DNA of 23,828 nucleotides, taken from the IMG/VR virus record IMGVR_UViG_3300035187_000108, positions 1 to 23,828 of that record; one strand, given 5' to 3'. Under the pieces are notes generated by a model that did no database searches, was not told where the DNA came from, and was given only the letters and a program-made list of their open reading frames with translations. A program made the translations under genes and the position numbers. The DNA comes from a virus. Positions within the stretch are counted from its first letter, which is position 1, and each line of letters begins with the position of its first letter. Positions 877 through 23,828 of the stretch are shown piece by piece.

Positions 877-1652
877 GATTGCATCAAGTCCAATATCTGC
901 ATACTTGCAGGTTCGTAGGACAACCACACGGGCGAAGCGCCAGTGGCATCGGCTGGTCCGTATCTATTCTTGACAGCACACACACCCATGGATGCGATTT
1001 GTCCGTGCACTGTAAGTATCAGGCTCGGGGTCTGGGCGACCTTGCCATGCAGAGAACTGCGTGGAGGACAAGGGTTTCCAGGGACACCTTCGCTTGTATG
1101 ATGGCATACCACCACCGCTGCGCCAGTCTCTCGTGCCCACCACTTGAGTTCACGCATGAGGGTGCGAAGCCCGCCCCACTCATCCTGCCCATCAAGGGTG
1201 ACATCAACAGCGTTATCCAACACAATCAACTCGACATCCTTACCCAAGCGCTCGCGTGATGCGAGGATAGAATCCTCAACATCACGAAGCGTTGGTGCAG
1301 AATCAAACTCCCAGTAGATGTGGTCGGCAGAGCGAAGCATTTGCCCCGCCCATTCCCTATCACTTTCCATAAGAGGTTCGACTTCTCCTTGAGGCATGCC
1401 TGTAATCATCGCCAGCAAGCGCAAACTCATCGTGTGAGAGTGTGTATCTGCTGAGATATACAGTGTTGGGACGGATGCTCTGACAGCAAGCGAGAGCGCC
1501 AGTGTGGATTTACCAGCACCAGGCGGACCCGCAATCATGCTGACTTCGCCCCGTCTAAACGCTATCTGCTGCGCAGCCAGGGTGTGCCACACTGTTGGCA
1601 GTGTCGCTCCACCCTGAGATGCAGTTTTGATAGCGCGTGATAAGAGGCGCAT
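873..1652 (-). CDS. RecA/DnaB-like P-loop ATPase (probable replicative helicase)
   Basis: A 259-residue ATPase of the RecA fold. Walker A is GPPGAGKS at residues 42-49, and a Walker B-type strand ELIVLDN is at about 141-147. The segment VVCHHTSEG (about 181-189) sits where DnaB- and RepA-like helicases place their gamma-phosphate sensor strand. The protein is essentially one ATPase core: there is no primase-binding N-terminal domain of classical DnaB, so it may be a minimal phage hexameric helicase or a RecA-like recombinase. The ATG is 3 bases after the upstream stop. It lies downstream of a Cas4-like nuclease and a zinc-binding protein, consistent with a phage replication or recombination module. 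Helicase is more likely than recombinase from the H-x-S-E-G segment and late KNRYGP motif, but this is not decisive. Confidence 0.75.
   Translation of the reverse strand: MRLLSRAIKTASQGGATLPTVWHTLAAQQIAFRRGEVSMIAGPPGAGKSTLALSLAVRASVPTLYISADTHSHTMSLRLLAMITGMPQGEVEPLMESDREWAGQMLRSADHIYWEFDSAPTLRDVEDSILASRERLGKDVELIVLDNAVDVTLDGQDEWGGLRTLMRELKWWARETGAAVVVCHHTSEGVPGNPCPPRSSLHGKVAQTPSLILTVHGQIASMGVCAVKNRYGPADATGASPVWLSYEPASMQILDLMQS
1553..1560. repeat. Dispersed octamer GTCTAAAC, site 1
   Basis: In the ATPase gene, reading A-F-R-R on the coding strand. First of ten sites of this 8-base word in the window. Confidence 0.55.
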
Positions 1653-1655
1653 GGG

Positions 1656-2916: not shown

Positions 2917-2930
2917 ATCGTTTCCTTTCA

Positions 2931-3529: not shown

Positions 3530-3537
3530 GTCTAAAC
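3530..3537. repeat. Dispersed octamer GTCTAAAC, site 2
   Basis: Non-coding copy between the bidirectional terminator and the stop of the holin-like gene. Confidence 0.55.
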
Positions 3538-3725: not shown

Positions 3726-4220
3726 TTACTTACCTTTCTTCTTGGTCTTGCGAACAGGCTTGGCTTCTACCTTTGCGGGTTTCTTCCTGCGTGGTGTGCT
3801 CAGTTCAGCAACCACCCTGCCTGCAAGTTTTGCCTCGTTTATCCACGGGAACCAGGGACGGGTGTTGCTTGCGTGCTCTGGTTTGATGGAGATGTGGAGG
3901 TGTTTGTCGTGAGGATTCTTACCAGTGTACTTTCTTTCTCCACGCCGTTTAGACCAAATCTTTCCGTTGAAGATGAGATAGTCAACTCGGTTGTCTCCTT
4001 GGAGATTCTTATAGATTTCCTTACAGTCGATACCGTGCTTAGGGTCATGGGTCAAATCTACCGCAAGTCCCGTGTTGTGGTCTGAGTTAGGATTTTGTCT
4101 GAAATGAGCAGTGGAAGGGAGCAACCCGTCTGATGCCTTCTTGCGCAGGGGTGCAATCGCAGTCGCTTGGCGTAGCACGGCAATCGCAGCAGGGCTGGCA
4201 ACTTTGGCAAGGGGTTTCAT
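3726..4220 (-). CDS. Endolysin, M15-type peptidase
   Basis: A 164-residue zinc peptidase of the M15 (D-Ala-D-Ala carboxypeptidase/VanY-like) type. The signature is SDHNTGLAVDLTHD, giving zinc ligands His48 and Asp55 with the usual six-residue spacing, and HDKHLHISI, giving His107 and/or His109. It should cleave peptide bonds in host peptidoglycan at lysis. The last 30 residues are a basic Lys/Pro/Ala tail (KKPAKVEAKPVRKTKKKGK) that may bind the wall or be disordered. There is no clear signal peptide, so release would need a holin, and holin-like genes lie on both sides. It is short for an endolysin: one catalytic domain, no recognisable wall-binding repeat. Confidence 0.85.
   Translation of the reverse strand: MKPLAKVASPAAIAVLRQATAIAPLRKKASDGLLPSTAHFRQNPNSDHNTGLAVDLTHDPKHGIDCKEIYKNLQGDNRVDYLIFNGKIWSKRRGERKYTGKNPHDKHLHISIKPEHASNTRPWFPWINEAKLAGRVVAELSTPRRKKPAKVEAKPVRKTKKKGK
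3947..3954. repeat. Dispersed octamer GTTTAGAC, site 3
   Basis: In the endolysin gene, reading W-S-K-R. Confidence 0.55.
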
Positions 4221-4444: not shown

Positions 4445-4459
4445 TTGTTTAGACAACGG
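4445..4459. repeat. Dispersed octamer, site 4, within a 15-base repeat
   Basis: TTGTTTAGACAACGG covers the stop codon of the 656-residue tail gene. The same 15 bases occur at 10573-10587. TTGT and ACAA form an inverted pair around the core. Confidence 0.65.
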
Positions 4460-6419
4460 TTCGAGCGATTACTTGGATGATTCCACCATAGCCAGAGAAG
4501 TTGGCGTTAGGTGGTGTGGTGCGGGTAAAGGTTACCTGCTCCACCACTGCTTCGGTGGGTTCACCACCGGCAGTGAAATCTTGGATGACGACAGACTCAC
4601 CAAGTCCTTCGAGTTGTTCGAGTTGCTGTAAGCGGGCGAGCGCATAGCCCTCGAATCCAATCATCTGCCTGTTTCGGTCAGTCTCTTTATCGAAGCAGAA
4701 AATAGGAATTTGTAGCACGCGAGCACGGGTAGGAGTAGGCAGAGCCTTGACAGAATACCCAAGCATCGTAGCGCCAGTAGTAGCAGTCGTGTCGTTGCGG
4801 TTGAGGCGGAATGTAAACTGCGCATCAGGGTTGACATCGCCAAAAACCGAGCCAAGGTCGTAGTCATATATCTCGCTCGTTCCCTGGAACACGGTCTTGA
4901 ATGATTCATTGACACCATCTACGGTCCTGAAAATATCAATGTCGCCTTGCAATGTTCCATTGAATCTAATCTTGAGGCGCTTCCATGATTTGTTCTCGAA
5001 GGTATCAAAGCGGATAAGGCTGATTCTCAGTTCGCCAGATTCCACTAACTCGGTGGCAGACTCAACGAATAAACCATCGCCGTTTACACAGAAGGCAGCA
5101 CGACCATCAGAGAGATGGGCTACTCCTTCTACCTTACCACTGGCTGCTTCGGCATAGACGAAGGTGGAGTAGGCATAGCCACCATCAGAGAGTGGCTGAC
5201 CGAGGTTGATTTTGTAAATGCCCGAGTACCCACCGATACCGCTATCCACGCCAGCGTAAACGAATGAGCCGAAAGCGCTCATCTTGTACACGCCGAGGGA
5301 AGTCTCAAACACAAGCGGTCCATAGGACAAGTCACCGTTGTCGTTGGAGATAGCCACACGCACACCACGGCTCGTTCCAAGGATGACGAATGTTCCAAGG
5401 TAGCCAAGTAATCCAGTGATTGTCTCACCACCTGGAAGGGTTATGATGCTAGTCATTGTGTTGAGCGTGCCATCATCAGCAACGGTTATCTTGAACACAT
5501 TGCCCTGGTTACCAGAGAACCCACCCACATAGATGGCTGCGCCACCTTCTGCCACCGACCTGAATGTGTAGGACTTAGGAAGGGTTGTGCTTCCGTTTAT
5601 CGGGGTAAGTGTGCTGAGGTTGATGGATGAACCAGTGTTGATATTCAATTCATAAACATAAGGATTTTTATTGGTGTCGTGATAGGCAAGGATAAAGCGG
5701 TTCTTTACATAACCGATGGTTGCTTCCACAGCATTTGCTGAGTTGATTGCATAGTCTTGGTGCAATGATGGGCTGGTGTCATCGAAGGAGTATCTATAAA
5801 CCTTGGTTGGAGTAACAAGCATCAAGTCATTACCACCCATAGTGCAGGCAATAATGTTTTCAGTTATGGTTCCACTGTTTACAATGGTTGTCTCTGCACC
5901 ATCGCTTGCCCTAATACGAAGGACACGGATGGCTTCGGATGATGAGTACTTGACAAGAATGAGGTACTCAACCCCGTTGATAACGGTGCTGAACACCCTG
6001 CCATCGCCAGTCATAGCCTCTTGCAGTACTGTTTTCCTTATCAGTGAAATCTGTCCAGGAGTCCATGGGTCTATGCCAACGGATGTCTCATACTGGAAGC
6101 GGACTTCCTCGATGTTACCGGAGATGGGTTCTTGGTACTTATTGCCAGCGCCATAGTGGAAAGATGACTGGCTTCTAATCCAGTAGCCAGAGCCTGAAAG
6201 GGACTGCTCGCCTGGGTCACGGGAGTTATCGAAGCGCTGTGTGCGGAACTCAGCCGTCTGTCTACGGTATGGGGTGTTATCCGTAACAGCATAGATAAAC
6301 GGTAGCGAGCCGATAGCCACATCGAACTTGTATGTGGTGGGGTCATAGTAAGCGGAGGCACGACCTGAAAGGTCTATGACCACGCGTTCGGAAATATCCG
6401 GTGCTCTGCTCTCTGACAT
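4449..6419 (-). CDS. Minor tail protein, 656 aa, beta-propeller-like centre
   Basis: A large virion protein, probably part of the tail tip or a spike. The N-terminus (residues 1-110) ends in DPWTPGQISLIRK; the centre (about 110-450) contains repeated short beta units (for example VFSTVINGVEYLILVKY, RVAISNDNGDL, AAFCVNGDGLFVES) suggesting a beta-propeller. A jelly-roll-like segment follows (about 470-560), then a C-terminal domain from IPIFCFDKETDRNRQ onward with a helix rich in Leu/Gln. GGGAG precedes the ATG by 4 bases. The stop codon lies within one of the GTCTAAAC octamers. No enzymatic motif was recognised. Its position between tail-fibre genes and the lysis cassette fits the role. Confidence 0.7.
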   Translation of the reverse strand: MSESRAPDISERVVIDLSGRASAYYDPTTYKFDVAIGSLPFIYAVTDNTPYRRQTAEFRTQRFDNSRDPGEQSLSGSGYWIRSQSSFHYGAGNKYQEPISGNIEEVRFQYETSVGIDPWTPGQISLIRKTVLQEAMTGDGRVFSTVINGVEYLILVKYSSSEAIRVLRIRASDGAETTIVNSGTITENIIACTMGGNDLMLVTPTKVYRYSFDDTSPSLHQDYAINSANAVEATIGYVKNRFILAYHDTNKNPYVYELNINTGSSINLSTLTPINGSTTLPKSYTFRSVAEGGAAIYVGGFSGNQGNVFKITVADDGTLNTMTSIITLPGGETITGLLGYLGTFVILGTSRGVRVAISNDNGDLSYGPLVFETSLGVYKMSAFGSFVYAGVDSGIGGYSGIYKINLGQPLSDGGYAYSTFVYAEAASGKVEGVAHLSDGRAAFCVNGDGLFVESATELVESGELRISLIRFDTFENKSWKRLKIRFNGTLQGDIDIFRTVDGVNESFKTVFQGTSEIYDYDLGSVFGDVNPDAQFTFRLNRNDTTATTGATMLGYSVKALPTPTRARVLQIPIFCFDKETDRNRQMIGFEGYALARLQQLEQLEGLGESVVIQDFTAGGEPTEAVVEQVTFTRTTPPNANFSGYGGIIQVIARTVV

Positions 6420-6446
6420 GCTTCTCCCGCTTCAAGACTTGAGTGT

Positions 6447-6683
6447 TTAGATGCCTGTAATGGCTGCGATTTCAGAGTCGGTAAGACCGAGTTCCTTCAA
6501 CTTTTCCTGAGCAGATTGTTTAGACGCAGCCTTGGCTGCTTCTTCTGCTTTGCGCTGCGCCTGTGCCTCGGCTGCTGCTGCTGCATCTTGGTCGCGCTGT
6601 GCAATCTCAGCAGGGGTCAGGGGCAGAATCGTCTGCTTACCTGTCTTGCAGTCCACTACAATCTTTGTCAGTTGCTCACTCAT
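6447..6683 (-). CDS. Small coiled-coil protein of the tail-fibre block
   Basis: A 78-residue protein: a short beta N-terminus (MSEQLTKIVVDCKTGKQTI), then LTPAEIAQRD leading into an Ala/Glu/Gln/Lys-rich helix (about residues 25-62) likely to form a coiled coil, and a small C-terminal helix pair (LGLTDSEIAAITG). Similar LTP-EIA-helix proteins sit at the end of tail-fibre operons in many phages and are often called tail assembly chaperones or fibre attachment proteins. It overlaps the upstream gene by 8 bases. Function is not proven. Confidence 0.6.
   Translation of the reverse strand: MSEQLTKIVVDCKTGKQTILPLTPAEIAQRDQDAAAAAEAQAQRKAEEAAKAASKQSAQEKLKELGLTDSEIAAITGI
6518..6525. repeat. Dispersed octamer GTTTAGAC, site 5
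   Basis: In the 78-residue coiled-coil gene, reading S-K-Q. A one-base variant (GTTTAGAT) covers that gene's stop codon at about 6444-6451. Confidence 0.55.
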
Positions 6684-7017
6684 ACTTTACTGCCTCCCAA
6701 TCAAGAGTCTCTTCATTCCAGAAATACATCAAGCCATCCTCAGGCTTTGCCTTCGGTGCCTGCCAGTCGTGGTTCTCATCCAGTGTCCACGATGGGAATG
6801 GTTGAGGTGCCACGAATACATCTGCTGCTTCGTCATAGGTATAGCCGATGCCAGCGTACTGCTTGCGGATGCGGTGGTTGTAGGATGTCTGAATCCAGCG
6901 TCCACCCAATCCGAGGTCATTAGCGAGGAAGTCCTCGCCTCGATGCTCTTGTTCATCAGGAACAACAAGCACCTGTGTTACTACATTGTTGCTATCTACT
7001 TCTGCGAAATGTGCCAT
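6676..7017 (-). CDS. Cyanophage-like tail-region protein, 113 aa
   Basis: Begins MAHFAEVDSNNVVTQVLVVP and contains GGRWIQTSYNHRIRKQYAGIGYTYDE (residues 38-63) and PQPFPSWTLDENHDWQAP (71-88). This series of motifs recurs, as I recall, in small structural-region proteins of T4-like cyanophages and other aquatic phages, usually near tail-fibre genes. It is probably a small virion or fibre-associated protein; the biochemical role is unknown. AAAGGA stands 6 bases before the ATG, and the gap from the upstream adhesin gene is 9 bases. The N-terminus often carries a short beta hairpin that could bind a fibre. Confidence 0.7.
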   Translation of the reverse strand: MAHFAEVDSNNVVTQVLVVPDEQEHRGEDFLANDLGLGGRWIQTSYNHRIRKQYAGIGYTYDEAADVFVAPQPFPSWTLDENHDWQAPKAKPEDGLMYFWNEETLDWEAVKYE

Positions 7018-7026
7018 TGTTATCCT

Positions 7027-8358
7027 TTACTTTGCATATCTAACTATTACTACACCGGAACCACCGTTACCACCATCTTGGGACCCAGCACCTCCACCAC
7101 CGCCACCTCCGCCTGTGTTGGCAGTTCCATTTCCACCAGTGACTGAGGTGGTTCCACCATTACCGCCACCGCCAGTTCCACCAGTTCCTGCAGTCGCATC
7201 AAGACAACCGCCTCCGCCACCGCCTGCTCTTGTAACTGCAGTTCCTGTTATAGAAGAGGAAACTCCATTGCCACCATTTCCTGATGTATTTCCGGCAACT
7301 CCAACTGCTCCAGCACCTCCACCACCGCCTGCTCTTTCAGCAGTCGTTCCTCCATCACCGCCTGCATAACCTTGATTTGCAGTTCCAGCGCCGCCAGGAT
7401 TGCTTGTGCTTCTTGTTCCACCACTGCCTGAACCGCCAGCGGTTCCGGTTTGAGCAGAAAGACCGTGAACCCCTAAACCACCACCGCTTGATGTAATAGT
7501 GCTAAAAACACTATTTGACCCTTGAGTTGCATTTGTTGAACTTCCAGTTCCTTTTGCCCCACCTGCTCCAACGGTAACTGTATAATTTGTTCCATTCAGT
7601 AGAGATAGTGCTGATTCAGCGGAAGCGCCGCCACCAGAAGTACCTACAGAAGTTCGGTATCCACCTGCTCCACCACCTGAACCCTTGTTTGGTCCTCCTC
7701 CACCACCACCAGCAATTACTAAGTAGTCAACGGTGAGATTCTGCGTTGGCGTAAAAGTACCGCTTTCATTGAAGAGGTGATAGACGTGGGTGTCTGTGTC
7801 ATACACCATTCCACCAGTTGCCTTGATTTGGGCAGTCGTGCGGGAGATGCCATACAAGGTAAATGTGGAGTATTGTTGAAATGGATTTGCTCCAGCGTTT
7901 GCCGCTTCTAAGGTTACTGATGTAATGGCTGCAGTGTTTGACCACAATCCAGCACTAAGTAGCGAAAACGCTCCAGTAGCGTTGTTCTCAACTACGCTAT
8001 CAGCGCTATAAGATTTGTTCGTTGAGCCAGCATAATTTGGAATATAGATTTCATCATTGCTAAACGTACTGGCAGTCTGCCCTGTTGTTACTGAGTTTCC
8101 AGCGTACTGATTGAACGTTGCCGATGAAGCAGCACTTCCATTACCACGCAAATATCTATTAGTAAAAGAAGTGCTTGACCCATTGAACTTTATGATGTAG
8201 TAGGAACCACTTGTGCTCGCTGAATCGTTGTTACGAGTAGATGCTTTTATTACTAAATCCGTGTAAGTCTGCGGGATGTTGCTAAAGGTAACATCTGCAG
8301 CACCACCACTACCCACAGTGACGGTCTGAATTGCAACCATTGTGCCATTGAGTGCCAT
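7027..8358 (-). CDS. Glycine-rich tail adhesin (third of three paralogues)
   Basis: A 443-residue protein. Residues 1-180 form a beta-rich domain containing ADVTFSNIPQTYTDLVI, shared with the two upstream genes. A linker (TDTHVYHLFNESGTFTPTQN) leads to DYLVIAGGGGGG at about residue 210, after which about 230 residues consist of glycine-rich runs with Ser, Ala, Asn and Thr, ending in GGSGVVIVRY. Such glycine-rich tips can fold as polyglycine-II helix sandwiches in phage receptor-binding adhesins. The protein is probably a receptor-binding fibre tip. The start overlaps the upstream stop (TAATG). The strong glycine bias gives long open proline-rich frames on the opposite strand; these are not genes. 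Confidence 0.75.
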   Translation of the reverse strand: MALNGTMVAIQTVTVGSGGAADVTFSNIPQTYTDLVIKASTRNNDSASTSGSYYIIKFNGSSTSFTNRYLRGNGSAASSATFNQYAGNSVTTGQTASTFSNDEIYIPNYAGSTNKSYSADSVVENNATGAFSLLSAGLWSNTAAITSVTLEAANAGANPFQQYSTFTLYGISRTTAQIKATGGMVYDTDTHVYHLFNESGTFTPTQNLTVDYLVIAGGGGGGPNKGSGGGAGGYRTSVGTSGGGASAESALSLLNGTNYTVTVGAGGAKGTGSSTNATQGSNSVFSTITSSGGGLGVHGLSAQTGTAGGSGSGGTRSTSNPGGAGTANQGYAGGDGGTTAERAGGGGGAGAVGVAGNTSGNGGNGVSSSITGTAVTRAGGGGGGCLDATAGTGGTGGGGNGGTTSVTGGNGTANTGGGGGGGGAGSQDGGNGGSGVVIVRYAK

Positions 8359-9722: not shown

Positions 9723-10264
9723 TAGGCGTTCACTCCATATAACTGGAAGGCTGAGTTGGCTGCTAGATTTCCACTTGATGGAAATATCTGAATACTTGTA
9801 ATTGCTGCCGTGTTTCTCCAAGAAGCGCTATTTAGCATTATAATTCCAGAGCCGTTCGCATCATATCCAGCAAGCGCTTTTGTTGTGGTGTACTTGTTCG
9901 TGTTTCTATAATCTAGAATATCTAAAACAAAACTACCTAAATTGCCCGAACCTGCTCCATATCCAATATATCCTCGCGATAAGGGAGCCAAAGCACTCGC
10001 TGTGACAGATGAACCTCCTCCATAAAGAAGGTGTGCTGAATAGTTTGACCCACTGTCAGAATTGAATCTATAACTCCAGTCATCGGGTGCGTTTATATGA
10101 CCTCTAATTTGTAGGTGGGTATATGTTTGAGGGATGTTGCTGAAGGTAATACTACTTTGCGCCGAAGCCAGCGTGAACTCACCCAACGGAAACATTGAAC
10201 CTGCATCGGCTGGTGTAAGGTTACCACTGATAGCCGATGCAAAGATTCCAGTGAATAGTGGCAT
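9722..10264 (-). CDS. Tail protein with the shared domain but no glycine-rich tip (first of three paralogues)
   Basis: A 180-residue protein with ITFSNIPQTYTHLQIRG (about residues 38-54), RFNSDSGSNYSAH (66-78) and a C-terminal SAFQLYGVNA. These match the first domain of the next two proteins, so the three genes look like tandem duplicates. This one stops where the others continue into the linker and the glycine-rich adhesin. It may be a short fibre or a base onto which the longer ones assemble. The start overlaps the upstream stop (TAATG). The N-terminus (MPLFTGIFASAISGNL) differs from the others and may attach it to another virion protein. Confidence 0.7.
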   Translation of the reverse strand: MPLFTGIFASAISGNLTPADAGSMFPLGEFTLASAQSSITFSNIPQTYTHLQIRGHINAPDDWSYRFNSDSGSNYSAHLLYGGGSSVTASALAPLSRGYIGYGAGSGNLGSFVLDILDYRNTNKYTTTKALAGYDANGSGIIMLNSASWRNTAAITSIQIFPSSGNLAANSAFQLYGVNA

Positions 10265-10722
10265 TATTGAATATCCCCCACGATGATGAATGACGATGCG
10301 GACTCAGCGATAACTTGGGCTGCGGAATACTGTGCTCGAATCTTAGGAGCAGCAGCGGTAGCACCATTAGAGACAATGGTTACTCCGGCTCCGGCAGCAA
10401 AGGTGACCTGACCGGCACCCTTTTGGACAACAGCAATCCTGTCGCCAGCAGCAAATACGCTGTTGTTGACAGTAACGGTGACTGCTGCAGAATTGCTCGT
10501 TACAACCACATTATCCGCATCAGTTGCTGCCAGAGTATAGGCAGTTGTAGATGCAGTGATTAGGCTGTTGCGTTGTTTAGACAACGGGAAGCCACCAGCA
10601 GTGGACCCATCGTGAACAACAACTGTGTCTTTGTCGGTATCAACCGTAAGTTCAGCAAGCAAACCAGTAAAGGATGAGTGCTGTGTGGTTGTACCCCTAC
10701 GGCGTTGAAATGCAAAACTCAT
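10264..10722 (-). CDS. Tail-fibre protein with Mtd/hyaluronidase-like N-terminal domain
   Basis: A 152-residue protein starting MSFAFQRRRGTTTQHSSFTG; the segment to about residue 47 (AELTVDTDKDTVVVHDGST) matches the N-terminal domain of phage hyaluronidase-like fibres and the major tropism determinant, which forms a trimeric base. The remainder (residues 55-150) is a small beta domain (VTVNNSVFAAGDRIAVVQKGAGQ, VTIVSNG, ASSFIIVGDI) of the kind that ends phage fibres. I chose the ATG at 10722, which overlaps the upstream stop in an ATGA junction, over a TTG 15 bases upstream. No catalytic residues were seen, so it is structural. Confidence 0.75.
   Translation of the reverse strand: MSFAFQRRRGTTTQHSSFTGLLAELTVDTDKDTVVVHDGSTAGGFPLSKQRNSLITASTTAYTLAATDADNVVVTSNSAAVTVTVNNSVFAAGDRIAVVQKGAGQVTFAAGAGVTIVSNGATAAAPKIRAQYSAAQVIAESASSFIIVGDIQ
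10573..10587. repeat. Dispersed octamer, site 6, within a 15-base repeat
   Basis: TTGTTTAGACAACGG inside the Mtd-like fibre gene (L-S-K-Q), identical to 4445-4459, which is in an unrelated gene and another reading phase. Confidence 0.65.
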
Positions 10723-12155: not shown

Positions 12156-12162
12156 GTTTTAC

Positions 12163-13059
12163 CTATCTCTGATAGTGGGAACGGATGGGGTATTGACGGC
12201 GTTGGTTATCCGCCACTTCGTTTAGACGCTGTTGATAAATGTTGTACAAGAATCTGGAAGCGTTCTGTCCAGAACCTGCTGGTCTGATTCCATCAAGCGC
12301 ATCTGCCATAGCAGATTGCGGACCAAGGCGTGATGGGTCAAGGAATGAAATCATACGGAAGGCAGCACCATAGATAACGACATCCTCCGAATAGGACGGC
12401 ATGCCGGTTACTGTCTCATAGTCATCGCTGTCATTGACCAAGAGGGTTGGGCGCTTGGCATAAGCCACATGGATGGTCTGCCCAGGTACTATGCCAGCAT
12501 AGATGCTGATGGACTTTCCTGTTGTAAAGTCGGTTGTATCTGCCGTGCGGTTGACCGTGTAGGCACGCACTGGCATCCACTCTTCGGTTGGTCCTACTGT
12601 TGAGTAGGTAACGCTAAGAACATTCTGGAAGTTGCTTGGCAAACTATAGGTAGTGCGGGCTGCTATAAAATCAAAGTCATAGGTACCCACAGCAAAGACT
12701 GATGGATACATCGCATCAAGCGTATTGTTGATGGCGTTCTTGATTTCTTGACGAGGAAAGATAGGGCTGCCCATAACCTTGGCATTGACGGCATGGGTGG
12801 TAGCCGTGGTGCCACGCTGACCTCTACCCCATGGGGCTATGTTCAACTGGTTATTCACATTGTCTGTGGTGTTGATAAAGAATATCTCGTCACCAACCTG
12901 GGCAAAGCCACGACCCAAGGTGGTGGCATCATAGACATTGAAGGTTGTTCCAGTAGCCGAGGTGACAGCCGAGGTAAGCCAGGTGGTTGGCTCGGAGTTC
13001 TCCGTATAGCCATGAAGGACCGACTCAACGCGGTCAGCCAGTTGTCCGAAACTACTCAT
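12163..13059 (-). CDS. Head-tail connector/adaptor-like protein
   Basis: A 298-residue protein. The N-terminus (residues 1-20, FGQLADRVESVLHGYTE) is a helix; residues 26-95 resemble the small beta domain of the neighbouring fibre (GDEIFFINTTDN, WGRGQRGTTATTHA). The remainder (FPRQEIKNAINNTLDAMYPSVF, then YSLPSNFQNVLSVTYST, and a helical end with FLDPSRLGPQSAMADALDGI) has the look of a phage tubular or adaptor protein that joins portal and tail in short-tailed phages. Position between the capsid-side small genes and the fibres supports this. The ATG overlaps the upstream stop (ATGA). The name is by context and general pattern, not a firm family match. Confidence 0.5.
   Translation of the reverse strand: MSSFGQLADRVESVLHGYTENSEPTTWLTSAVTSATGTTFNVYDATTLGRGFAQVGDEIFFINTTDNVNNQLNIAPWGRGQRGTTATTHAVNAKVMGSPIFPRQEIKNAINNTLDAMYPSVFAVGTYDFDFIAARTTYSLPSNFQNVLSVTYSTVGPTEEWMPVRAYTVNRTADTTDFTTGKSISIYAGIVPGQTIHVAYAKRPTLLVNDSDDYETVTGMPSYSEDVVIYGAAFRMISFLDPSRLGPQSAMADALDGIRPAGSGQNASRFLYNIYQQRLNEVADNQRRQYPIRSHYQR
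12220..12227. repeat. Dispersed octamer GTTTAGAC, site 7
   Basis: Near the end of the connector-like gene, reading R-L-N-E. Confidence 0.55.
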
Positions 13060-13331
13060 AGGTTGATACTCCTCAAGGCATCCACAGCCGATAGTCCAGT
13101 CGTTCCAGCAATCTCATTGCATACAGCGTTTAGACCCTTGAAGGCATTTGGCTGCCTGGTCGAGGATGCCTTGTAGTTGAGAGCACCCAATAGCCCTAAG
13201 CCGGAGGTGCCAGCCCAAGCGTTAGCAGCCCCTATGAGGGCTTTATAGGCTGTTAGGGCGGGGTATGTTCCACCGTTGGCTAAACGGTTCATCTCCGCCG
13301 TAAGCGTGCTTCCTGCGACTCCTGTAGCCAT
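13056..13331 (-). CDS. Hypothetical small structural-region protein, 91 aa
   Basis: Begins MATGVAGSTLTAEMNRLANG and is rich in Ala, Gly and Leu (ANAWAGTSGLGLLGALNYK at residues 36-54; CNEIAGTTGLSAVDAL near the end). Small proteins with this LTAEMNRLANGG pattern occur between head and tail genes of actinobacteriophages, as far as I recall. Function is unknown; a small virion or assembly protein is plausible. The ATG overlaps the upstream TAA (TAATG), and its stop overlaps the next start (ATGA). Confidence 0.65.
   Translation of the reverse strand: MATGVAGSTLTAEMNRLANGGTYPALTAYKALIGAANAWAGTSGLGLLGALNYKASSTRQPNAFKGLNAVCNEIAGTTGLSAVDALRSINL
13128..13135. repeat. Dispersed octamer GTTTAGAC, site 8
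   Basis: In the 91-residue gene, reading G-L-N-A. Confidence 0.55.
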
Positions 13332-14443: not shown

Positions 14444-14453
14444 ATTCCTCTCC

Positions 14454-14965: not shown

Positions 14966-14985
14966 GTCATCCTTATTCTGGGTTG

Positions 14986-15013
14986 GGGGGCTACCCGCTA
15001 TGTGATAACCCCC
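14986..15013 (-). promoter_or_regulatory. Hairpin in the gap after the major capsid gene
   Basis: On the minus strand GGGGGTTA (15013-15006) pairs with TAGCCCCC (14993-14986), eight pairs including one G-U, around a 12-base loop. There is no U-tract. It could lower expression of later genes relative to the capsid gene, or protect the capsid mRNA end. Confidence 0.5.
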
Positions 15014-15027
15014 GCAACGCCTACTGC

Positions 15028-16194: not shown

Positions 16195-16200
16195 GTGTTC

Positions 16201-16207
16201 ACCTCCT
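16201..16207 (-). promoter_or_regulatory. Strong ribosome-binding site of the capsid gene
   Basis: AGGAGGT stands 6 bases before the ATG at 16194, a full Shine-Dalgarno match and the best among the starts inspected here. It suits the need for hundreds of capsid subunits. Confidence 0.8.
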
Positions 16208-16232
16208 GGTGATTGGTTGATGTGTGGTTTGG

Positions 16233-16676
16233 TTATAGACCAAGGAGGGCATCAAGTTCTTCTTTAGTCTTAGCATTGAGAACCCTAGACATAGCATCCT
16301 CGTCAACCGAAGGTGGTTGACCAGTAGAAACCATGTTGTTGATTCTTGCATGTGCTGCAACATCTGGAACTTGTGCTTGTTCTTGCTGTTGGACTGGCGC
16401 TCCAAAGACATCGCCATATTCGTTTACCCACTGGTTGATTGCTTCTTCCGAGGCATCAATATCCTGTGGCACGAACGCTGCAATCTTTGGATTGAGTCCT
16501 TTAGCCTGTAGAACTTCCTTGACAGTACGCTGACGGGTCTGTACTTTCAGACCTGACAACTCCTGCTCTAGTTCTTTCGCACGCTTTTCTAGCGCACGGT
16601 TTACTTTGCGGAGTTGAGCAACAACATCTGTTGAAGTGTTGTCATCTTCGTCATCGTATTCGTAATTGGTAGCCAT
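16233..16676 (-). CDS. Capsid scaffold-like protein
   Basis: A 147-residue acidic, mostly helical protein: disordered acidic start (YEYDDEDDNT), a coiled-coil helix at about residues 17-45 (QLRKVNRALEKRAKELEQEL), a central segment (EVLQAKGLNPKIAAFVPQDI) and a helix at the C-terminus (LNAKTKEELDALLGL). Length, acid/coiled-coil make-up and position straight before the capsid gene are typical of phage scaffolding proteins, which organise head assembly and then leave. GGGAG precedes the ATG by 8 bases. No protease motif is visible. Confidence 0.8.
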   Translation of the reverse strand: MATNYEYDDEDDNTSTDVVAQLRKVNRALEKRAKELEQELSGLKVQTRQRTVKEVLQAKGLNPKIAAFVPQDIDASEEAINQWVNEYGDVFGAPVQQQEQAQVPDVAAHARINNMVSTGQPPSVDEDAMSRVLNAKTKEELDALLGL

Positions 16677-16792
16677 CTACCTATCTCCCTTTTCGTTGTA
16701 TTCGCAGTCCTCGCATGGATTCGGGGAAACCCATACGGCTACCGCTACCAGACTTCTACGCCCCCCTGGGCTGGTCGGTCAGGGTGGGGGTT
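16677..16792 (-). other. 116-base gap before the scaffold gene
   Basis: One of the largest gaps in the minus-strand run. On the minus strand it carries GC-rich arms (CCCTG ... CAGGG) without a U-tract, then an open frame ending just before the scaffold start that would read VWVSPNPCEDCEYNEKGDR but has no ATG, GTG or TTG start in the gap. No convincing -10 or -35 pair was found. Confidence 0.4.
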
Positions 16793-18157
16793 CTATATGT
16801 TTGTTTGCTGTAGGGATGTTGCGGTGACTCCGCCACGCTCCTGGAAGCGTGCTAACTCACGAGCAGTTCTACGCTGTGAGGCAAGACCTGCTTGAATATC
16901 GCCACCAACGACTGCTTGTACAGCCTCTACATCCTGATAGTTCTGTCCTTCGATAGCAGCAAGCCTGCGCTGTGTATCAGCCAACTGCCTTGCTCTTTGG
17001 AATGAAGCAGAAATCTGATTGTAGGAAGATTCTCCTACTGCACCAATAAGACTTCGTGCAAGTTCGTCTGCTCCTGGAAGCGCTCTTGCAACTCCAGCAA
17101 GACCTGCTTTGGTTGCTGCTGCACCAATCTCGGCAGTCCTAACTTGCTTGCGGATAACATCTATACCAACCGTCGGGTTGAGGATATAAGTCAAGACCGC
17201 ACTCTTATCTACCTCTGGGTAGAAAGTCTTGAATGTTTCCATGACCTCTGGGTTTTCATCGAGACGGTTTGCTGCCGTGCTAACGCGCTCCTCAAACTCT
17301 CGAGGCGCTACTGTATTCTCTATGTACTTTCCAAGCATTTGCCTGCTACCAAGTATGCTGGTGTCAAGTCCAAATGCTCTGAGAGTCTGCAAGTAGCCAC
17401 GCTCATTCGAGATATAGGTAGCCTCATTGATGGCTACGCCAGCCTTACGCAAGGCTTCCATTCCTGGAAAGCGGTCCTTATAGGATTTAGTGTTAGGCAA
17501 ATCCATCTTGATTTGAGCGATAGTCTTATCTTCAATAATCATCGCATCAACAGTATCTGCTAAATCTGCTAGACCAATCTCTCCAAGGGTTGCCTTGAAC
17601 TCTTGTTGGGCAGTTCTGCGTTGCCTGTTTTCCAACTCCTTGGTGTTATCTACTGGCTTTGGAAGTTGGATAACCCCATTGACATAGGTTGCACCATAGA
17701 GGGTTCCGGTATATGGGATGCCATTGGCAGTCAGCGGACTTTGGGCATTGCCATTTCCAGCATAGGAAGTCGGCTGGTTGCTTGCACTATCTACCTTGAG
17801 AATACCGTTTACATAGGTAGCCCCATTGTACTGTCCGGTATATGGGGAACCGTTGAGTGCTAATGGGTCACCAGTTGTACCAGTTCCGGTCCATGTATCA
17901 CCCTTTGGGGTTGGTTCAAGTGGTTGTTTCGGGGTAATAACAGGCGTGGTTATTGGCGTTGGAGCAATAGCAGCATCGGTAATCCCGAACATTCTTTCTT
18001 CTGCGCCAGTAAGCCCAGGTCCTTGGTTACCCCGCGGAGTAGCAGATGGTGCCTGAGTAGATTCACCCGTTGTAGCCAGGTAATCTTCGTAGGACATCCT
18101 ATCTTCTTGCGGAAGCATCCGTTGAAGATTGCTCCATTGTCGTCTCGTTATCGCCAT
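16793..18157 (-). CDS. Virion-associated protein with NG-PYTG repeats, 454 aa
   Basis: Unrecognised family. Residues 1-60 are polar; 61-95 are Pro/Thr-rich linker. Two copies of a 24-residue unit, NGSPYTGQYNGATYVNGIL (about 102-120) and NGIPYTGTLYGATYVNGVI (145-163), lie in the linker, and a related unit is in the upstream gene. From 175 on it is helical (DLADTVDAMIIEDKTIAQIK, YKDRFPGMEALRKAGVAI, YLQTLRAFGLD), ending in a Gln/Arg-rich helix. The helical segment resembles large actinobacteriophage proteins placed between portal and capsid genes, whose role is not firmly known; internal virion or ejected protein is possible. It starts 3 bases after the upstream stop. Confidence 0.65.
   Translation of the reverse strand: MAITRRQWSNLQRMLPQEDRMSYEDYLATTGESTQAPSATPRGNQGPGLTGAEERMFGITDAAIAPTPITTPVITPKQPLEPTPKGDTWTGTGTTGDPLALNGSPYTGQYNGATYVNGILKVDSASNQPTSYAGNGNAQSPLTANGIPYTGTLYGATYVNGVIQLPKPVDNTKELENRQRRTAQQEFKATLGEIGLADLADTVDAMIIEDKTIAQIKMDLPNTKSYKDRFPGMEALRKAGVAINEATYISNERGYLQTLRAFGLDTSILGSRQMLGKYIENTVAPREFEERVSTAANRLDENPEVMETFKTFYPEVDKSAVLTYILNPTVGIDVIRKQVRTAEIGAAATKAGLAGVARALPGADELARSLIGAVGESSYNQISASFQRARQLADTQRRLAAIEGQNYQDVEAVQAVVGGDIQAGLASQRRTARELARFQERGGVTATSLQQTNI
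17669..17737 (-). repeat. Protein repeat unit, copy 3 (454-aa protein)
   Basis: Codes for PLTANGIPYTGTLYGATYVN then GVI. It shares with copy 2 the DNA stretch CCGGTATATGG on the plus strand. Confidence 0.7.
17798..17866 (-). repeat. Protein repeat unit, copy 2 (454-aa protein)
   Basis: Codes for PLALNGSPYTGQYNGATYVN then GIL. It is very close to copy 3, which starts 129 bases further along the gene, so these two probably arose by duplication. Confidence 0.7.
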
Positions 18158-18160
18158 GGG

Positions 18161-19657
18161 TTAGCCTGCAAATCCGAACATCTTTGCAATATCAAGTGCC
18201 ATATTGCTATAGGTTTCCTTTGCGTTCTTGGTGTACTGCCACATTGGGTCCTGCTTGAGTTGCTTATTGAAGTCGGCAAAGGTGCGAGCATTGCCCGTGT
18301 CTTTGTCAATTACTTTACCCATCAAGTCATTCCAGGTAATTGCGGTGGAATCAATCTCAAGGAGTTGAGCCATCTGCTGACGGTAGTTGTTCGTCACTTC
18401 GTAAAGGCTTCTGCCAGTCTTGAGAGACTCTTGGAATGGCTTGTTCTGAGGAGCATCCAAAGCCATTTGCTTGATGCTGTTATCCCAGTACTGATAGTCT
18501 CTGCCATCCATGGCATCGAGCAATGACATATTGATGGTGTTCTCTAGGTTAGCATCTAAGGAAATGCCGTAGTTGTAGGCAGTCTTTTTGATTCTATCTA
18601 GGTAGCCACCGATGACACCGCCACCTGTGAAAATAAGGTTGCCCTTGGTTGCAAGGTAACTTTCCAGTTGGTCATCGTCCCAGTTGTTCCTGATTGACTC
18701 CATGGCAATACCCTCAAGGAACTGAGAGTTATCAACAATCTTGCCAGTAGTGTCATCAAATCCTTTGACGGAAATACCCAAAGCCTCAAGTTTGGACGCT
18801 ACGCTGTCAATGTTATTGCGTAGTTTTTCTGCAAAAGTAGATGCGTTGCGTGGGTCATTTGTCTCGATGAAGAACATACGCAGGCTAGGAAGCGTGCTTT
18901 GCCACCAGTTAGTTCCCTTGAGCGCTTCCATAAAGGTTTGCTCGTCCCACTGCTGGTTGACTGCCGTATTGAAGAGACGGTCAATCTGATTGCGCTGCGC
19001 CTTATCGTCCAACTCAGCAAAGGTTGTGCGTAGGTAGGAAAGCCAGAGTTGCTTGTTGTCTCTTCCGCCAGCCTTGACTTTAGATTCTGCAGCACCAGCA
19101 GCAGCGGTTTCGCTTGTCTCTTTGACAAGGATTCCGTCTTTGTATGTCTTACCCTTGTGGCTTCCGCTGAAAGGGACATTGTTGCGAAGCAGTGGCTTAT
19201 CGGGTGTGCCTTGACCGAGAAACGCACCGTCCTCCTCGACCTGAGACTTTGGCACCCGCGGTACCTCTGGTCGCTCTGTTGAGCCTTGGAAGTAAGCATC
19301 GGTTCCTGGAACTAAAGACTTGCCATCTGCTCCGTAGCGCGGAACTGGTTGCCTACCAAGAGCAACCTCTCTTTGGTACTGCTCCTCTGCTGCAACGGCA
19401 TCAACCCTTTTAGCCTTGGGTTCACGCGCTTTAGCAATGCGTGCTTGAATGTCTTGTTTTTCTATCCTAAGCGAAGAAAGTTTTTTTCCGGCATCCCTGA
19501 AACGCTTGCTATCTGTAGGAGCGCCCTGGATGGTTTGCTCTGTTTCATAAATCTCACGATTTATTCTTTGGAGTTCATTAGAAAGACCAGTTACGGATAA
19601 AGTTTCTAACTGCCTTTTCCTGGAGGTATCCTTGGCATCTGAAAATGTTTCAGCCAT
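18161..19657 (-). CDS. Virion-associated protein with coiled coil and NG-PYTG-like unit, 498 aa
   Basis: Residues 20-80 form a coiled coil (LSNELQRINREIYETEQTIQ and following). A linker (about 100-200) holds one NNVPFSGSHKGKTYKDGIL unit (159-177), matching the repeats in the next gene. The rest (200-498) is a helical domain (LWLSYLRTTFAELDDKAQRN, NQQWDEQTFMEALKGTNWWQ, NNWDDDQLESYLATKGNLIF) with repeated patterns of short helices around the residue pair W-D. Function unknown; an internal head or ejection protein would fit a short-tailed phage at this position. The ATG overlaps the upstream stop (TGATG). Confidence 0.65.
   Translation of the reverse strand: MAETFSDAKDTSRKRQLETLSVTGLSNELQRINREIYETEQTIQGAPTDSKRFRDAGKKLSSLRIEKQDIQARIAKAREPKAKRVDAVAAEEQYQREVALGRQPVPRYGADGKSLVPGTDAYFQGSTERPEVPRVPKSQVEEDGAFLGQGTPDKPLLRNNVPFSGSHKGKTYKDGILVKETSETAAAGAAESKVKAGGRDNKQLWLSYLRTTFAELDDKAQRNQIDRLFNTAVNQQWDEQTFMEALKGTNWWQSTLPSLRMFFIETNDPRNASTFAEKLRNNIDSVASKLEALGISVKGFDDTTGKIVDNSQFLEGIAMESIRNNWDDDQLESYLATKGNLIFTGGGVIGGYLDRIKKTAYNYGISLDANLENTINMSLLDAMDGRDYQYWDNSIKQMALDAPQNKPFQESLKTGRSLYEVTNNYRQQMAQLLEIDSTAITWNDLMGKVIDKDTGNARTFADFNKQLKQDPMWQYTKNAKETYSNMALDIAKMFGFAG
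19127..19195 (-). repeat. Protein repeat unit, copy 1 (498-aa protein)
   Basis: Codes for PLLRNNVPFSGSHKGKTYKD and the following GIL, the most divergent of three related units. It keeps the P-L-x-x-N-x-x-P-(F/Y)-(S/T)-G spacing and the T-Y-x-x-G-I-L ending. Confidence 0.6.
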
Positions 19658-20055
19658 CAGCCCTGTGCCCTCCTTACATCCTCAGCAATAGCGTTGTAAA
19701 TTGCATCTAAGTAGCGGTTTTCTTGGCGAGCACGAAATTCTGGAGTTGCCTCAATCTGGCTAACAATGGCAGCCTGCCTACCACCGACATCGGTTTCAGC
19801 AGCCTGATTGAGAAACACATTGATTGCCTTGGCACGCTCTGCGCCAGTAGCAGCCCTGCCAAGCATCTGTCGGTAGATGTCCTGGACATAGGCTGTAGCA
19901 TCTTGGGTGGTAAACGAAGGACCCTGAGTAGCAGAGCCACCCATTCCAGCAGCCTGGGCTGCAGCAACAAGCGCTGCTAAGTCAATGTTGCTTGACTTTT
20001 TGCCTGTGCCGGATGGTGTTCCGGATTCTGTCTTGGGCTTTTTTTCATCTACCAT
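19657..20055 (-). CDS. Small virion-region protein with a DUF4214-like helix pair, 132 aa
   Basis: The first 45 residues are polar and disordered (Lys/Ser/Thr/Gly). Residues 53-110 are helical and contain DIYRQMLGRAATGAERAKAI, which resembles the LYRxxLGRxxxxxE core of DUF4214-type surface/linker proteins. The end is a helix (YLDAIYNAIAEDVRRAQG). I chose the ATG at 20055, overlapping the large gene's stop as TGATG, over a TTG just upstream. Its tight coupling to the large gene suggests a virion-associated partner. The DUF4214 resemblance is by eye only. Confidence 0.6.
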   Translation of the reverse strand: MVDEKKPKTESGTPSGTGKKSSNIDLAALVAAAQAAGMGGSATQGPSFTTQDATAYVQDIYRQMLGRAATGAERAKAINVFLNQAAETDVGGRQAAIVSQIEATPEFRARQENRYLDAIYNAIAEDVRRAQG

Positions 20056-23000
20056 CAAACTACCACCGTATCGTTGATAAAGTAACGATTGAGGAACTGC
20101 TCAAACTCAGGGCTTTCTGCAATCAGTTGCTGCTTTACTTGGTCAAACACGAACACTAAATCTGCATTGCTCTTAGCCGATAGCATCATTGAGCCACCTT
20201 GTGCATCACGCGACTTGAGGATGTCAGCCATTTGGTCACGCACATCAAGGTATGTAGCCATAGCCTTGACAACCGTGCGGTTGCCGTTTTGCCCCATCCA
20301 ATTCTTGTCTTGCAGTGCTTTCTTGAGGACAAGAGCACGGCGCTCGTATTTACCCCTATCTGGGGATATGTACTCGGAATACCAATCGAAGTTTTCCTCA
20401 GCCTGCATACGAGTCCACAACTGCTTGGCAGCATTGATTGTCTCCATGCGTGGGTCAGTATCCGAAACAATACCGTTCTGAATTTTGTAGGTATTGATTT
20501 GACCCATCAACGAGTTGAACTGTGTCCAACCACGCTTGATATTGGCATCGCGCAACAATTCTTCTGGGCTTCGGTTCTGGCGATAAGTGTTCTTGGAGCC
20601 AGGATAAGCACCTTGCCTGTACTGCCATTGATAAGCAGCCTGACTAAAGGTGTACTGCCCGTCAAAATCATTAGCCAAGAATCCAATAAGTTCTGGGTTG
20701 TCAGATGCCTCAGCCTCTGCCATAAGTCCACGGAACTTCTTGAGGTTGTTGACTGTTTCCCTGTTAGCCTCAAGGCTACCTGGGGACTTAGAAAGACTGA
20801 CGGTTGCCTCAAAGTAATCTGGGTACATCTCAAGGAACTTAGCCTCAGCCTCGCCTGGTCCATACTGCGTAAGGAACTGGCGGAAGGTCTGCTGGTAGAA
20901 GTCCATCTCTGGGCTAACCGCAAATGGCATTGTCAGCGAGGAGAAAGCACGGAGCATGAAGAACTTGTTGGTCTTGTCCGTAATCTCCTTGAGCGTTGGC
21001 TCATCTGTCCTGCGCCCTGCGTTGTAGTTGTATGCCTCGTAGCGGAGCATCTGGTTGAAGGTACGGACATAGAGTTCGTCCTGGCTCCACATTGAGCGCA
21101 AACGGCGCAGCGCTGCTGGTGCAAACAAGTCTGTTGCAGTCTGTGGCATACCAGCGGGGAAGAACGGTCTAAACGCTTCCTCAAGTTCTGGTCTATTACG
21201 CAGCACCAAGTATGTTGGAAGCACCGCGTATGGACCGAAACCTGGGTTTCCTGGCTGACCTTGGGTAATAACATCCAAGGATGACAGCGGGATGTTGACC
21301 GTCTTGAACGCATTGTTGGCAATCTCGCGCCACTGCTTAGGCAAAGAGTCAATAAACCCTTGAGGTACCTGTACGACAAGATTCGCATAGGTTCCGCCAG
21401 CCAATTTCTTGGCATCCGTAATGCGATTGCCGTCTTGGTCAATAACGGTCTGACCATTGACAATCTGGGCAATCGTCCGAGCAGCCGATGTGACAGCCTG
21501 TGGGTTCTCAGCAACGATACCTGACCATCGCTTGATGGTGTTTTCGTAGGCTGCGTAGAACGGGAACATCAACTGCATAACCTGGCTTGATGAAGCACGG
21601 GTCCTGCGTACGATGGTAAACAGTGTCTGCTCGACTTGCCTGCGGGCATCAATGCGGGCACCACGCACAGCGTTGTTTATTTCATCTGCCGTAAGTCGGT
21701 CTGCTCCTTTTGTTGCAGCCAGATTCTCTATGTTTATACGAATTTGTCTATTGTAAACAGAGATAGCCAACGGGTGACGAGCAAAGACATCTTCTGGCAG
21801 TGAGCCAAGGAAGCGCATAACGCGCCTATTGAATGTGTCAATCAAACGCTCTTGGTCGCGGTATTCCTTGCTAGTTGTTACAAGCAGTCCGTTGATGTCT
21901 GGCAGATTCTCTGGGTTGACACCAAAGCGATTTTGCAGATATTCCTGCAACATAGCACCGGAGGCAACTCGGTCATCTGGAAGAGCAGTGCTAAAGAACA
22001 GCGCCGTTTCCTCATCTGGAATATACAACTTTACAGCGCCACGGGTAATGTTGATTTTCTCTAGCAAATCTTCGTTGAGTTCTCCACCACGGAGTGCGGT
22101 CAAACCAAAGGCTTGGCGCGGTGTGGTGTAGGTGTCATTGGCGTAAAGCCGACCATCTTTGCTTCTGGTAAGCCAGTTGAGAATGTCTTGGTCTGTTTCA
22201 CCATCAAGAACCCTGCGAACAATCGGGTCCATAACCCCTGTTTCTGGGTCACGGAAATGAAGGTTGATGACATTGGACCAAGCCTCAAAATAGCGTGGGT
22301 CATTGGACTTGACAAGGCTCACTGTCCTCGCACCAATGCCAGCGCTGAAAGCCATCTCCTGACTTCCGACCATAGAGTTCCATGTATCTTCTCCGGAAGT
22401 ACGACCCATAAACCAGGTGGCATCTTGGAACACTTCTGGGACTTCGTACTTCTGACCCATGGCTTCGATTTCCATGTACCCAAAGCCAGCGCGTTGCTTG
22501 ATTGCCTTCGACTCTGCTCGGATAACTGCAGCCCCAAGACGAGCAGCAACATCATCCATAGAAGCATGTGTCATCGTAAAGAGCCGTGCAAGATTCTCGG
22601 CAGCATCCTCAATGCCGTTGTTCAGCATCGAGTCAATGTTCTCTTTTGTGTAGTAAGGAGAGATAGGGCGCTCAGTAAGCCTTGCTGCCTTGCGAGCAGT
22701 GGTGCGAGCCAAACGACGCTCTTTGGCTGTAGCAAGGGGTTGTTCCATAATTGGCAAGTCCTCGGCTACCTCAACGGCAGCACGCTCCTGCATAGCCTTT
22801 ATGGAGTTATCAACGGCACGCTTTCTACCTTTGGTAGATACTGCCTCTGGTAGCACAATGTAAGACAAACCATTAGCCCGAGCATCATCTGGCACCGCAA
22901 CATAAGAAAGATTATTCTTTCGCATGTAGTCATAGATTGGGTCTGATTGGTTCTCCCAACCTTTCTTTTTGACCCATTCCTTGAACACGCCTACTTTGCC

Positions 23001-23828
23001 ACCGAATAAAGACTTGACCTCATTATCCATGGCACGCCATGAATCGGTAACCTTGGCAAGTCTTACGCCAGTTTCTGCACCTTCGCTCCATCGAACAAGG
23101 TCAAGACCCTCGCCGTAAACACGGACTGGAGTAACGCTGCCTTTTCCACCCTGAACCCTGAATACCGAGCGAGCAAAAATCTCTGGTTCTATTTTGAGGG
23201 CTTCTTCTTCGGCAAGCCGAATTTGATTCCAAGTAAGCGATTCGACTTTTCTCCACCCACGAGGGGTACGCATCTCAACAACTCTGCCAGCATTTCTGGC
23301 AGCAATCATGTCGGTGAGTAAATCGTCTGCTGCTTTCTTTACTCGTTCGCTTACTGCTCCAGCGCCTCTGCCAGCGCTTCTAGCCAGTTCTGCTTCTCTT
23401 GCTCGGACATTTGATAATAGTTCTTCGGGACTTGTACGAACAACCGTTCCTTCGCCGAGGATTTGGTCTGGGTCGAGGTCTGCGCCTTCTTTTGCTGCTT
23501 TGCCACCTGTACCACCTGTCTCAATCTCTTTTCCGTTTTTGACATCCCAGACAGCCATCTGGTCCCGAAACTCGGGGCTACCAAGTCTAACAGCAGCCTG
23601 CTCTGATGCAACATTATCGGCAAAGTCCAAATAGATTTGTTTGTCTTTTTTGTTGAACCATCCACCAAAAAACAGATTTGGATTCTGTCTAAACATTTCG
23701 GCATTGTCATCAAGAAACTTGCGAATTGTGGATGCAATTTCCTTGCGGTTTTTTGCCGGAAGTACAACACCACCGGAAGCACGACCAACCATATAGCCCT
23801 GGGTGGGCGAATCAAAGGTCACGCCACG
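20055..23828 (-). CDS. Very large virion-associated protein, partial at its N-terminus
   Basis: More than 1250 residues; the frame is open to the window edge and the first in-frame GTG (23822) sits in RGVTFDSPTQGYMVGRASGG, which reads as the middle of a protein, so the true start lies outside. From that GTG, residues 1-75 include FFGGWFNKKDKQIYLDFADN, a motif of phage polyvalent proteins; then a polar linker with helices (about 110-180); a large central region; and near 745-765 QLMFPFYAAYENTIKRWSG, which resembles the LPD38-type segment of polyvalent proteins. The C-terminal 500 residues are mostly helical. It might be a large internal protein ejected with the DNA. No kinase, protease or polymerase motifs were recognised. 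Confidence 0.65.
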   Translation of the reverse strand, partial: RGVTFDSPTQGYMVGRASGGVVLPAKNRKEIASTIRKFLDDNAEMFRQNPNLFFGGWFNKKDKQIYLDFADNVASEQAAVRLGSPEFRDQMAVWDVKNGKEIETGGTGGKAAKEGADLDPDQILGEGTVVRTSPEELLSNVRAREAELARSAGRGAGAVSERVKKAADDLLTDMIAARNAGRVVEMRTPRGWRKVESLTWNQIRLAEEEALKIEPEIFARSVFRVQGGKGSVTPVRVYGEGLDLVRWSEGAETGVRLAKVTDSWRAMDNEVKSLFGGKVGVFKEWVKKKGWENQSDPIYDYMRKNNLSYVAVPDDARANGLSYIVLPEAVSTKGRKRAVDNSIKAMQERAAVEVAEDLPIMEQPLATAKERRLARTTARKAARLTERPISPYYTKENIDSMLNNGIEDAAENLARLFTMTHASMDDVAARLGAAVIRAESKAIKQRAGFGYMEIEAMGQKYEVPEVFQDATWFMGRTSGEDTWNSMVGSQEMAFSAGIGARTVSLVKSNDPRYFEAWSNVINLHFRDPETGVMDPIVRRVLDGETDQDILNWLTRSKDGRLYANDTYTTPRQAFGLTALRGGELNEDLLEKINITRGAVKLYIPDEETALFFSTALPDDRVASGAMLQEYLQNRFGVNPENLPDINGLLVTTSKEYRDQERLIDTFNRRVMRFLGSLPEDVFARHPLAISVYNRQIRINIENLAATKGADRLTADEINNAVRGARIDARRQVEQTLFTIVRRTRASSSQVMQLMFPFYAAYENTIKRWSGIVAENPQAVTSAARTIAQIVNGQTVIDQDGNRITDAKKLAGGTYANLVVQVPQGFIDSLPKQWREIANNAFKTVNIPLSSLDVITQGQPGNPGFGPYAVLPTYLVLRNRPELEEAFRPFFPAGMPQTATDLFAPAALRRLRSMWSQDELYVRTFNQMLRYEAYNYNAGRRTDEPTLKEITDKTNKFFMLRAFSSLTMPFAVSPEMDFYQQTFRQFLTQYGPGEAEAKFLEMYPDYFEATVSLSKSPGSLEANRETVNNLKKFRGLMAEAEASDNPELIGFLANDFDGQYTFSQAAYQWQYRQGAYPGSKNTYRQNRSPEELLRDANIKRGWTQFNSLMGQINTYKIQNGIVSDTDPRMETINAAKQLWTRMQAEENFDWYSEYISPDRGKYERRALVLKKALQDKNWMGQNGNRTVVKAMATYLDVRDQMADILKSRDAQGGSMMLSAKSNADLVFVFDQVKQQLIAESPEFEQFLNRYFINDTVVV
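21167..21174. repeat. Dispersed octamer GTCTAAAC, site 9
   Basis: In the very large virion gene, reading A-F-R-P. Confidence 0.55.
23687..23694. repeat. Dispersed octamer GTCTAAAC, site 10
   Basis: Near the right edge in the very large virion gene, reading M-F-R-Q. Confidence 0.55.

Follow-up and report, generated by a model that had tools for sequence, protein, structure and literature searches.

Why should one short word recur ten times in unrelated genes of a virus? The stretch of DNA analysed here, the window, is virus record IMGVR_UViG_3300035187_000108, a 23.8-kb genome fragment of 23,828 nucleotides. It holds ten sites for the octamer GTTTAGAC/GTCTAAAC (Table 1), all at the starts listed in an earlier, sequence-only reading of the same DNA. 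That reading considered the octamer to be present beyond expectation, and it is indeed the top 8-mer of the window, with ten copies against an overall expectation of 0.4-0.6. An order-2 Markov model of the window predicts 0.38 copies (P about 1e-11) and an order-3 model 0.60, the octamer ranking first among 8-mers in both, while 100 dinucleotide shuffles gave an expectation of 0.61 and a maximum of 2. A codon-preserving shuffle had been named as the test by which the idea might fall: none of 1000 such shuffles reached ten copies (mean 1.83, maximum 6). The Markov models and both shuffles rule out chance or codon usage as the source of the ten copies. The coding readings had also been given correctly (F-R three times, S-K three times, L-N twice, a stop codon once and one non-coding site) and, because the sites occupy several reading frames, a common protein motif can be rejected too. 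The near variants reported at 6444 (GTTTAGAT) and 14186 (GTCTAAAT) are present as 7-base partial matches, and the argument stands without them. Among other words considered below, the window has no copy of GTTTAAAC, two of GTTTACAC and two of GTTTATAC.

Table 1. Octamer sites in the window, and a conserved stretch located in contigs of related phages.
Feature	Position	Strand	Context
GTTTAGAC	1553..1560	-	DnaB-like helicase gene (873-1652, -), codons GCG-TTT-AGA-CGG; GTTTAGAC in most class I relatives too
GTTTAGAC	3530..3537	-	non-coding, adjoins C-rich terminator-like stretch
GTTTAGAC	3947..3954	+	164-aa gene 3726-4220 (-); position aligns poorly with relatives
GTTTAGAC	4447..4454	+	overlaps stop codon of 656-aa gene 4449-6419 (-)
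GTTTAGAC	6518..6525	+	gene 6447-6683 (-), S-K frame
GTTTAGAC	10575..10582	+	gene 10264-10737 (-), inside extended inverted repeat GTTGTTTAGACAAC
GTTTAGAC	12220..12227	+	SU10-adaptor-like gene 12163-13059 (-), codons CGT-CTA-AAC (R-L-N)
GTTTAGAC	13128..13135	+	gene 13056-13331 (-), G-L-N frame
GTTTAGAC	21167..21174	-	large virion gene 20055-23822 (-), F-R frame
GTTTAGAC	23687..23694	-	large virion gene 20055-23822 (-), M-F-R frame
Conserved stretch with GCGCAGGTCAGAGCCACATTTATGGGGGGCGAGGACTAGCAAAGTTATGT	L091 16400-16895; L098 1440-1700; L102 2640-2860; L140 600-760

The window is part of the genome of a freshwater actinobacteriophage, with gene matches to the DnaB-like helicase, PD-(D/E)XK exonuclease, SU10-type adaptor and Phage_capsid_3 head protein families. 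Searching viral contigs with the capsid recovered 80 relatives. Among cultured phages, the window has distant relatives in E7 and F5, which infect 'Ca. Planktophila' (Kavagutti et al. 2023, PMC10202952) and whose capsid identity is about 70%, and in podophages of Streptomyces, Manuel among them. Relatives carry a WhiB gene, in keeping with an actinobacterial host. A capsid search of bacterial genomes for a prophage or host linkage returned no relative, and the word was not enriched in five actinobacterial genomes, to which little weight is attached, their kinship not being given. In the relatives an early cassette lies next to the terminase. This cassette is absent from the window, which covers only a sparse part of the word network and misses its dense early region.

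Each class of relatives has its own spelling of the word, which is the leading non-simple 8-mer of the phages carrying it. Most relatives (class I) use the palindrome GTTTAAAC, with 20-47 copies per genome where the early region is present. The class II word is the window's own GTTTAGAC, which reaches 22-24 copies within 7-10 kb in three early-region contigs; these contigs switch to GTTTAAAC further along and therefore look mosaic. Class III phages carry 25-45 copies of TGTCTTAA(GACA) / TTAAGACA, with a consensus near TGTCTTAAGACA. Word density peaks in the early region, at 6-12 per 2 kb versus 0-2 over most of the remaining sequence. The words of classes I and II and of the laboratory phages described below are one family, GTTTANAC, in which N is A in class I, G in class II and the window, and C in the laboratory phages, and the TGTCTTAAGACA-like word of class III is a more diverged form. 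In a single contig of 16 kb, G022, a T spelling is slightly ahead (T 6, G 5). In class III genomes G007-G011, G017 and G018 the perfect palindrome TGTCTTAAGACA occurs three times versus 85 occurrences of one-mismatch forms, as if the fully symmetric site were disfavoured. A literature search, mostly outside subscription journals, found no published report of the word.

The sequence-only reading had proposed that selection acts on the DNA rather than on the protein, and had suggested comparing synonymous positions in related phages. Site 12220 answers well to that comparison. Its protein reads R-L-N in every spelling, and the codons of class I (CGT-TTA-AAC), the window and class III (CGT-TTA-AAT in 7/13) differ synonymously; GTTTAAAC is found there in 28/32 class I relatives and in 0/13 of class III (Fisher 3e-8). 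At site 13128 the class I word is present in 30/32 class I relatives. The intergenic site 3530 has it in 17/17 class I relatives, while class III has its own form there, ATTAAGAC, in 4/6 and GTTTAAAC in 2/6. The stop codon site 4447 is spelled GTTTAAAC in four class I relatives and site 21167 in several. Site 1553 is the weakest evidence, because the window's spelling is shared there by most class I relatives. In pooled numbers, 55/220 class I sites (25%) lie outside open reading frames, where about 7% of the sequence is found (P 8e-17). Since homologous sites are kept, lost or re-spelled, at one of them by synonymous changes alone, and intergenic sites are enriched, the comparison supports the view that selection acts on the DNA and not on the protein. 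The same two observations favour the stoperator-like repressor site that had been among the roles suggested.

The remaining suggestions fared worse. A Chi-like recombination signal, a modification or restriction site or a packaging signal would be dispersed on both strands, as the word is, and its class I form GTTTAAAC is identical to the PmeI site. Class I and II words have no strand bias, which argues against Chi: the class I word is palindromic and the class II word is balanced (6:4 in the window, 13:11 in L138, 11:13 in L140), with a bias of about 3:1 in class III. Methylation or restriction is at odds with enrichment of the word rather than its avoidance, and no recognised methyltransferase was seen among the scanned early proteins; dozens of scattered copies do not suit packaging. 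With the strong early-region and intergenic enrichment, and with the class switching together with the early cassette, we regard all of these roles as highly improbable. Slightly better placed, although still improbable, is the idea that the word serves as a promoter element, for a sigma factor of the phage or of the host, or else as a start-associated sequence, in place of a repressor site. The phages do encode a sigma factor, some words lie within SprT promoters, and upstream of starts the class III sites concentrate at a distance of about 20 nt (18-24 nt), with a further peak just after stops. The peak of class I/II sites is at stops, most of these sites being inside genes and without orientation bias, and the sigma factor is 96% conserved between classes I and II despite the change of word and is present in class III as well.

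A stretch between the terminase and the early operon, which includes GCGCAGGTCAGAGCCACATTTATGGGGGGCGAGGACTAGCAAAGTTATGT, is strongly conserved in classes I, II and III and has little coding potential (Table 1). It had no match in Rfam and is possibly a structured RNA or a control region.

What, then, reads the word? Phages G014 (class I) and G002 (class III) have near-identical replication, capsid and packaging genes, with 94-100% protein identity for most, and differ in the early cassette, the scaffold/virion module and the word. Class III words in G002 and G006 are nearly all in the early region, with 3-5 leftover copies of GTTTAAAC; longer-established class III genomes have words outside the early region as well. 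The word thus changes with the early cassette, which argues for a phage-encoded reader within that cassette. The scaffold and large virion proteins come in two versions of about 25-38% identity (G014 5177-15455 versus G002 9034-18650), which are exchanged together between phages that are nearly identical in other respects, whatever the word class.

Within the cassette, every covered class I genome has a zinc-ribbon protein, an amidoligase and a GATase that are missing from class III, E7/F5 and Manuel; DUF3846 has the same distribution, save in the cut-off genome G012. At the first early-operon position, where class I has the zinc ribbon, class III has a 212-aa SprT-like protein whose C-terminus is the same ribbon (hhalign probability 87%, E 4.5e-6; phrog_6361 positions 155-202). 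Counted in this form for class III, the ribbon is present in all covered word-bearers and not in E7/F5/Manuel. The SprT domain has its HExxH motif in class III and in the cultured EH/AZ phages. Three class I genomes (G004, G005, G027) encode a full-length SprT-like protein that has kept the ribbon and not the HExxH (e.g. L166 8186-8734), a predicted pseudo-protease, and in most class I/II phages the SprT domain is gone and the bare ribbon is left. The predicted structure of the ribbon is usable (pLDDT 79) and had no PDB match at E<=0.001; the model of the pseudo-protease is unusable (pLDDT 43). No SprT zinc ribbon is known to act as a sequence-specific repressor. In class I/II cassettes the genes for an Amidoligase_2 and for a class II glutamine amidotransferase also lie near each other, and many word sites lie inside the amidoligase gene (L091 13417-15891).

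A search for cultured phages by SprT-ZnR homology, with the word counted afterwards, gave six: Cen1621, Honk, GardenState and Mabodamaca of Microbacterium, Nitro of Arthrobacter and Crosby of Streptomyces. GTTTACAC is the top 8-mer in 6/6, with 16-37 copies versus 0.2-1.7 expected. In SprT-negative phages GTTTANAC was not enriched (0-2 copies in phiC31, Manuel, RosePharie, Min1 and R4) or was at background level (E7 and F5), and it was not enriched in Adephagia, whose SprT lies outside the SprT-ZnR family. SprT homology was the criterion by which the six had been picked, and EH/AZ phages are mutually related, so the contrast of 6/6 with 0/7 overstates independence. Of the 28 sites in Cen1621, 17 fall between genes or at their boundaries, versus 12.5% (P 2e-9), and 14 lie upstream of a CDS at a distance of no more than 60 bp. 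The word sits at the apparent SprT promoter, whose hexamers were read by eye, in Cen1621, Honk and Mabodamaca. The ribbon of the SprT-ZnR in phage phiAsp2 (L294) resembles that of class III, and this phage carries a repeat of its own, GTGAAGTGTCA, in 13 copies often within TTGACTGTGAAGTGTCAA, perhaps a further spelling of the GTTTANAC system. EH/AZ phages encode serine integrases, and HTH proteins near SprT. The Phage_integrase family had no match in 22 freshwater relatives, so that a role in lysogenic immunity is at most putative there.

The weak point of the zinc ribbon as reader is that classes I and II have almost the same ribbon and yet different words; because of this near-identity, no residue was found that would decide between A and G. 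No consistent class I/II difference was seen in WhiB, DUF3846 or a 64-aa protein as class determinants either. The same operator network could have another reader: an HTH or sigma-like protein (EH/AZ), DUF3846, a resolvase-like protein, an unannotated small protein or a host protein. The near-identical ribbons speak for such a reader, as do the HTH genes near SprT, a Holliday-junction-resolvase-like protein that also tracks the word, and the amidoligase, GATase and DUF3846 that track class I. When the early genes of Cen1621 conserved in EH/AZ phages were screened, SprT-ZnR and the resolvase-like protein alone recurred in freshwater motif-bearers and in no negative (the G007 SprT was detected by BLAST and missed by the HMM), and the EH/AZ DNA-binding protein had no freshwater homologue. 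The resolvase-like protein does not fit well with the class differences, WhiB and sigma are conserved across classes, and a host reader is a poor fit to G002 and G014, which have most genes in common and different words. We judge another reader to be unlikely, though by no means negligible.

How does the network compare with known systems? Its many dispersed sites recall the conserved inverted repeats (CIRs) of phiC31, which are bound by the c repressor of that phage, and the top words of phiC31, CTACTCAC/CGTGAGTA, fit a CIR-type repeat. The sequences are different, however, and phiC31 has an annotated repressor c, no SprT-ZnR match and no GTTTANAC. There is a likeness, too, to the stoperators of cluster A mycobacteriophages (L5, Bxb1), 20-30 dispersed short sites per genome that are mostly not promoter-associated and whose group-specific consensus diverges with the regulator (PMC6550527); Streptomyces phage R4 also has stoperators (PMC10276819). 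The present words share with them a number of 20-30 or more, near-identity, dispersal and a group-specific consensus. In contrast, cluster A/R4 stoperators are oriented with transcription, whereas class I/II words are unoriented and class III words are biased about 3:1; the early region is densest here, and no integrase turned up in the freshwater phages. Their repressor is L5 gp71-like and none accompanies the words here: phmmer with R4 gp29 (E<=1) found no homologue in EH, AZ, Crosby, freshwater classes I, II and III or the negatives, and R4 itself has neither GTTTANAC nor SprT-ZnR. With the L5/R4-type repressor absent and the orientation bias lacking in classes I and II, the network would work like a stoperator system and yet is not of the cluster A/R4 type. 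Cluster K mycobacteriophages have start-associated sequences, SAS/ESAS (PMC3203893), short repeats near gene starts, where class III sites are also placed. GTTTANAC sites show no link with ribosome-binding sites, most of them falling within genes or at stops, and the cluster K phage Adephagia lacks the family. In phage E7 (L200), where the GTTTANAC network is missing, GACAGGAGA occurs ten times, for the most part at ribosome-binding sites (e.g. 31698, 33064, complement 962, 1711); it is placed near gene starts and is start-associated-sequence-like.

The existence of a network is well supported. We think it probable that it is a stoperator-like operator network, GTTTANAC, read by the SprT-type zinc ribbon of the early region. 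GTTTAGAC would be this phage type's spelling of the dispersed operator, a putative protein binding site with an effect on transcription. A regulator from the phage early region, most likely the small zinc-ribbon protein of the SprT-ZnR family (phrog_6361) encoded by the first gene of the early operon, would bind these operators; at promoters it would block initiation, and at the many operators that lie within coding sequence, in intergenic gaps or where genes end, it would block or modulate elongation in the fashion of stoperators.

Cluster AZ and EH phages have SprT-like protease genes in common, and Arthrobacter phage Powerpuff (cluster AZ) is temperate and forms immune lysogens with no identifiable repressor (PMC8758107). 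More tentatively, we raise the possibility that GTTTANAC is an undescribed operator family, read by a SprT-type zinc ribbon, that regulates several unrelated actinobacteriophage lineages and is the missing immunity system of AZ and EH phages, the protease of the freshwater phages having been degraded to a bare DNA-binding ribbon while the spellings diverged into incompatible classes. In phages that have kept the SprT protease, the enzyme's target may be the regulator itself, which it would inactivate. The genome-wide operator networks known in actinobacteriophages belong mainly to repressors of the L5/R4 and phiC31 types. If our reading is true, a further network joins them, whose word family is different and whose candidate reader belongs to an unexpected protein class; it spans abundant uncultured freshwater phages and cultured model phages. 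SprT-ZnR would then be a concrete candidate for the unidentified AZ/EH repressor (PMC8758107), and the changes of operator spelling among close relatives would provide a natural series for the divergence of immunity-type specificities.
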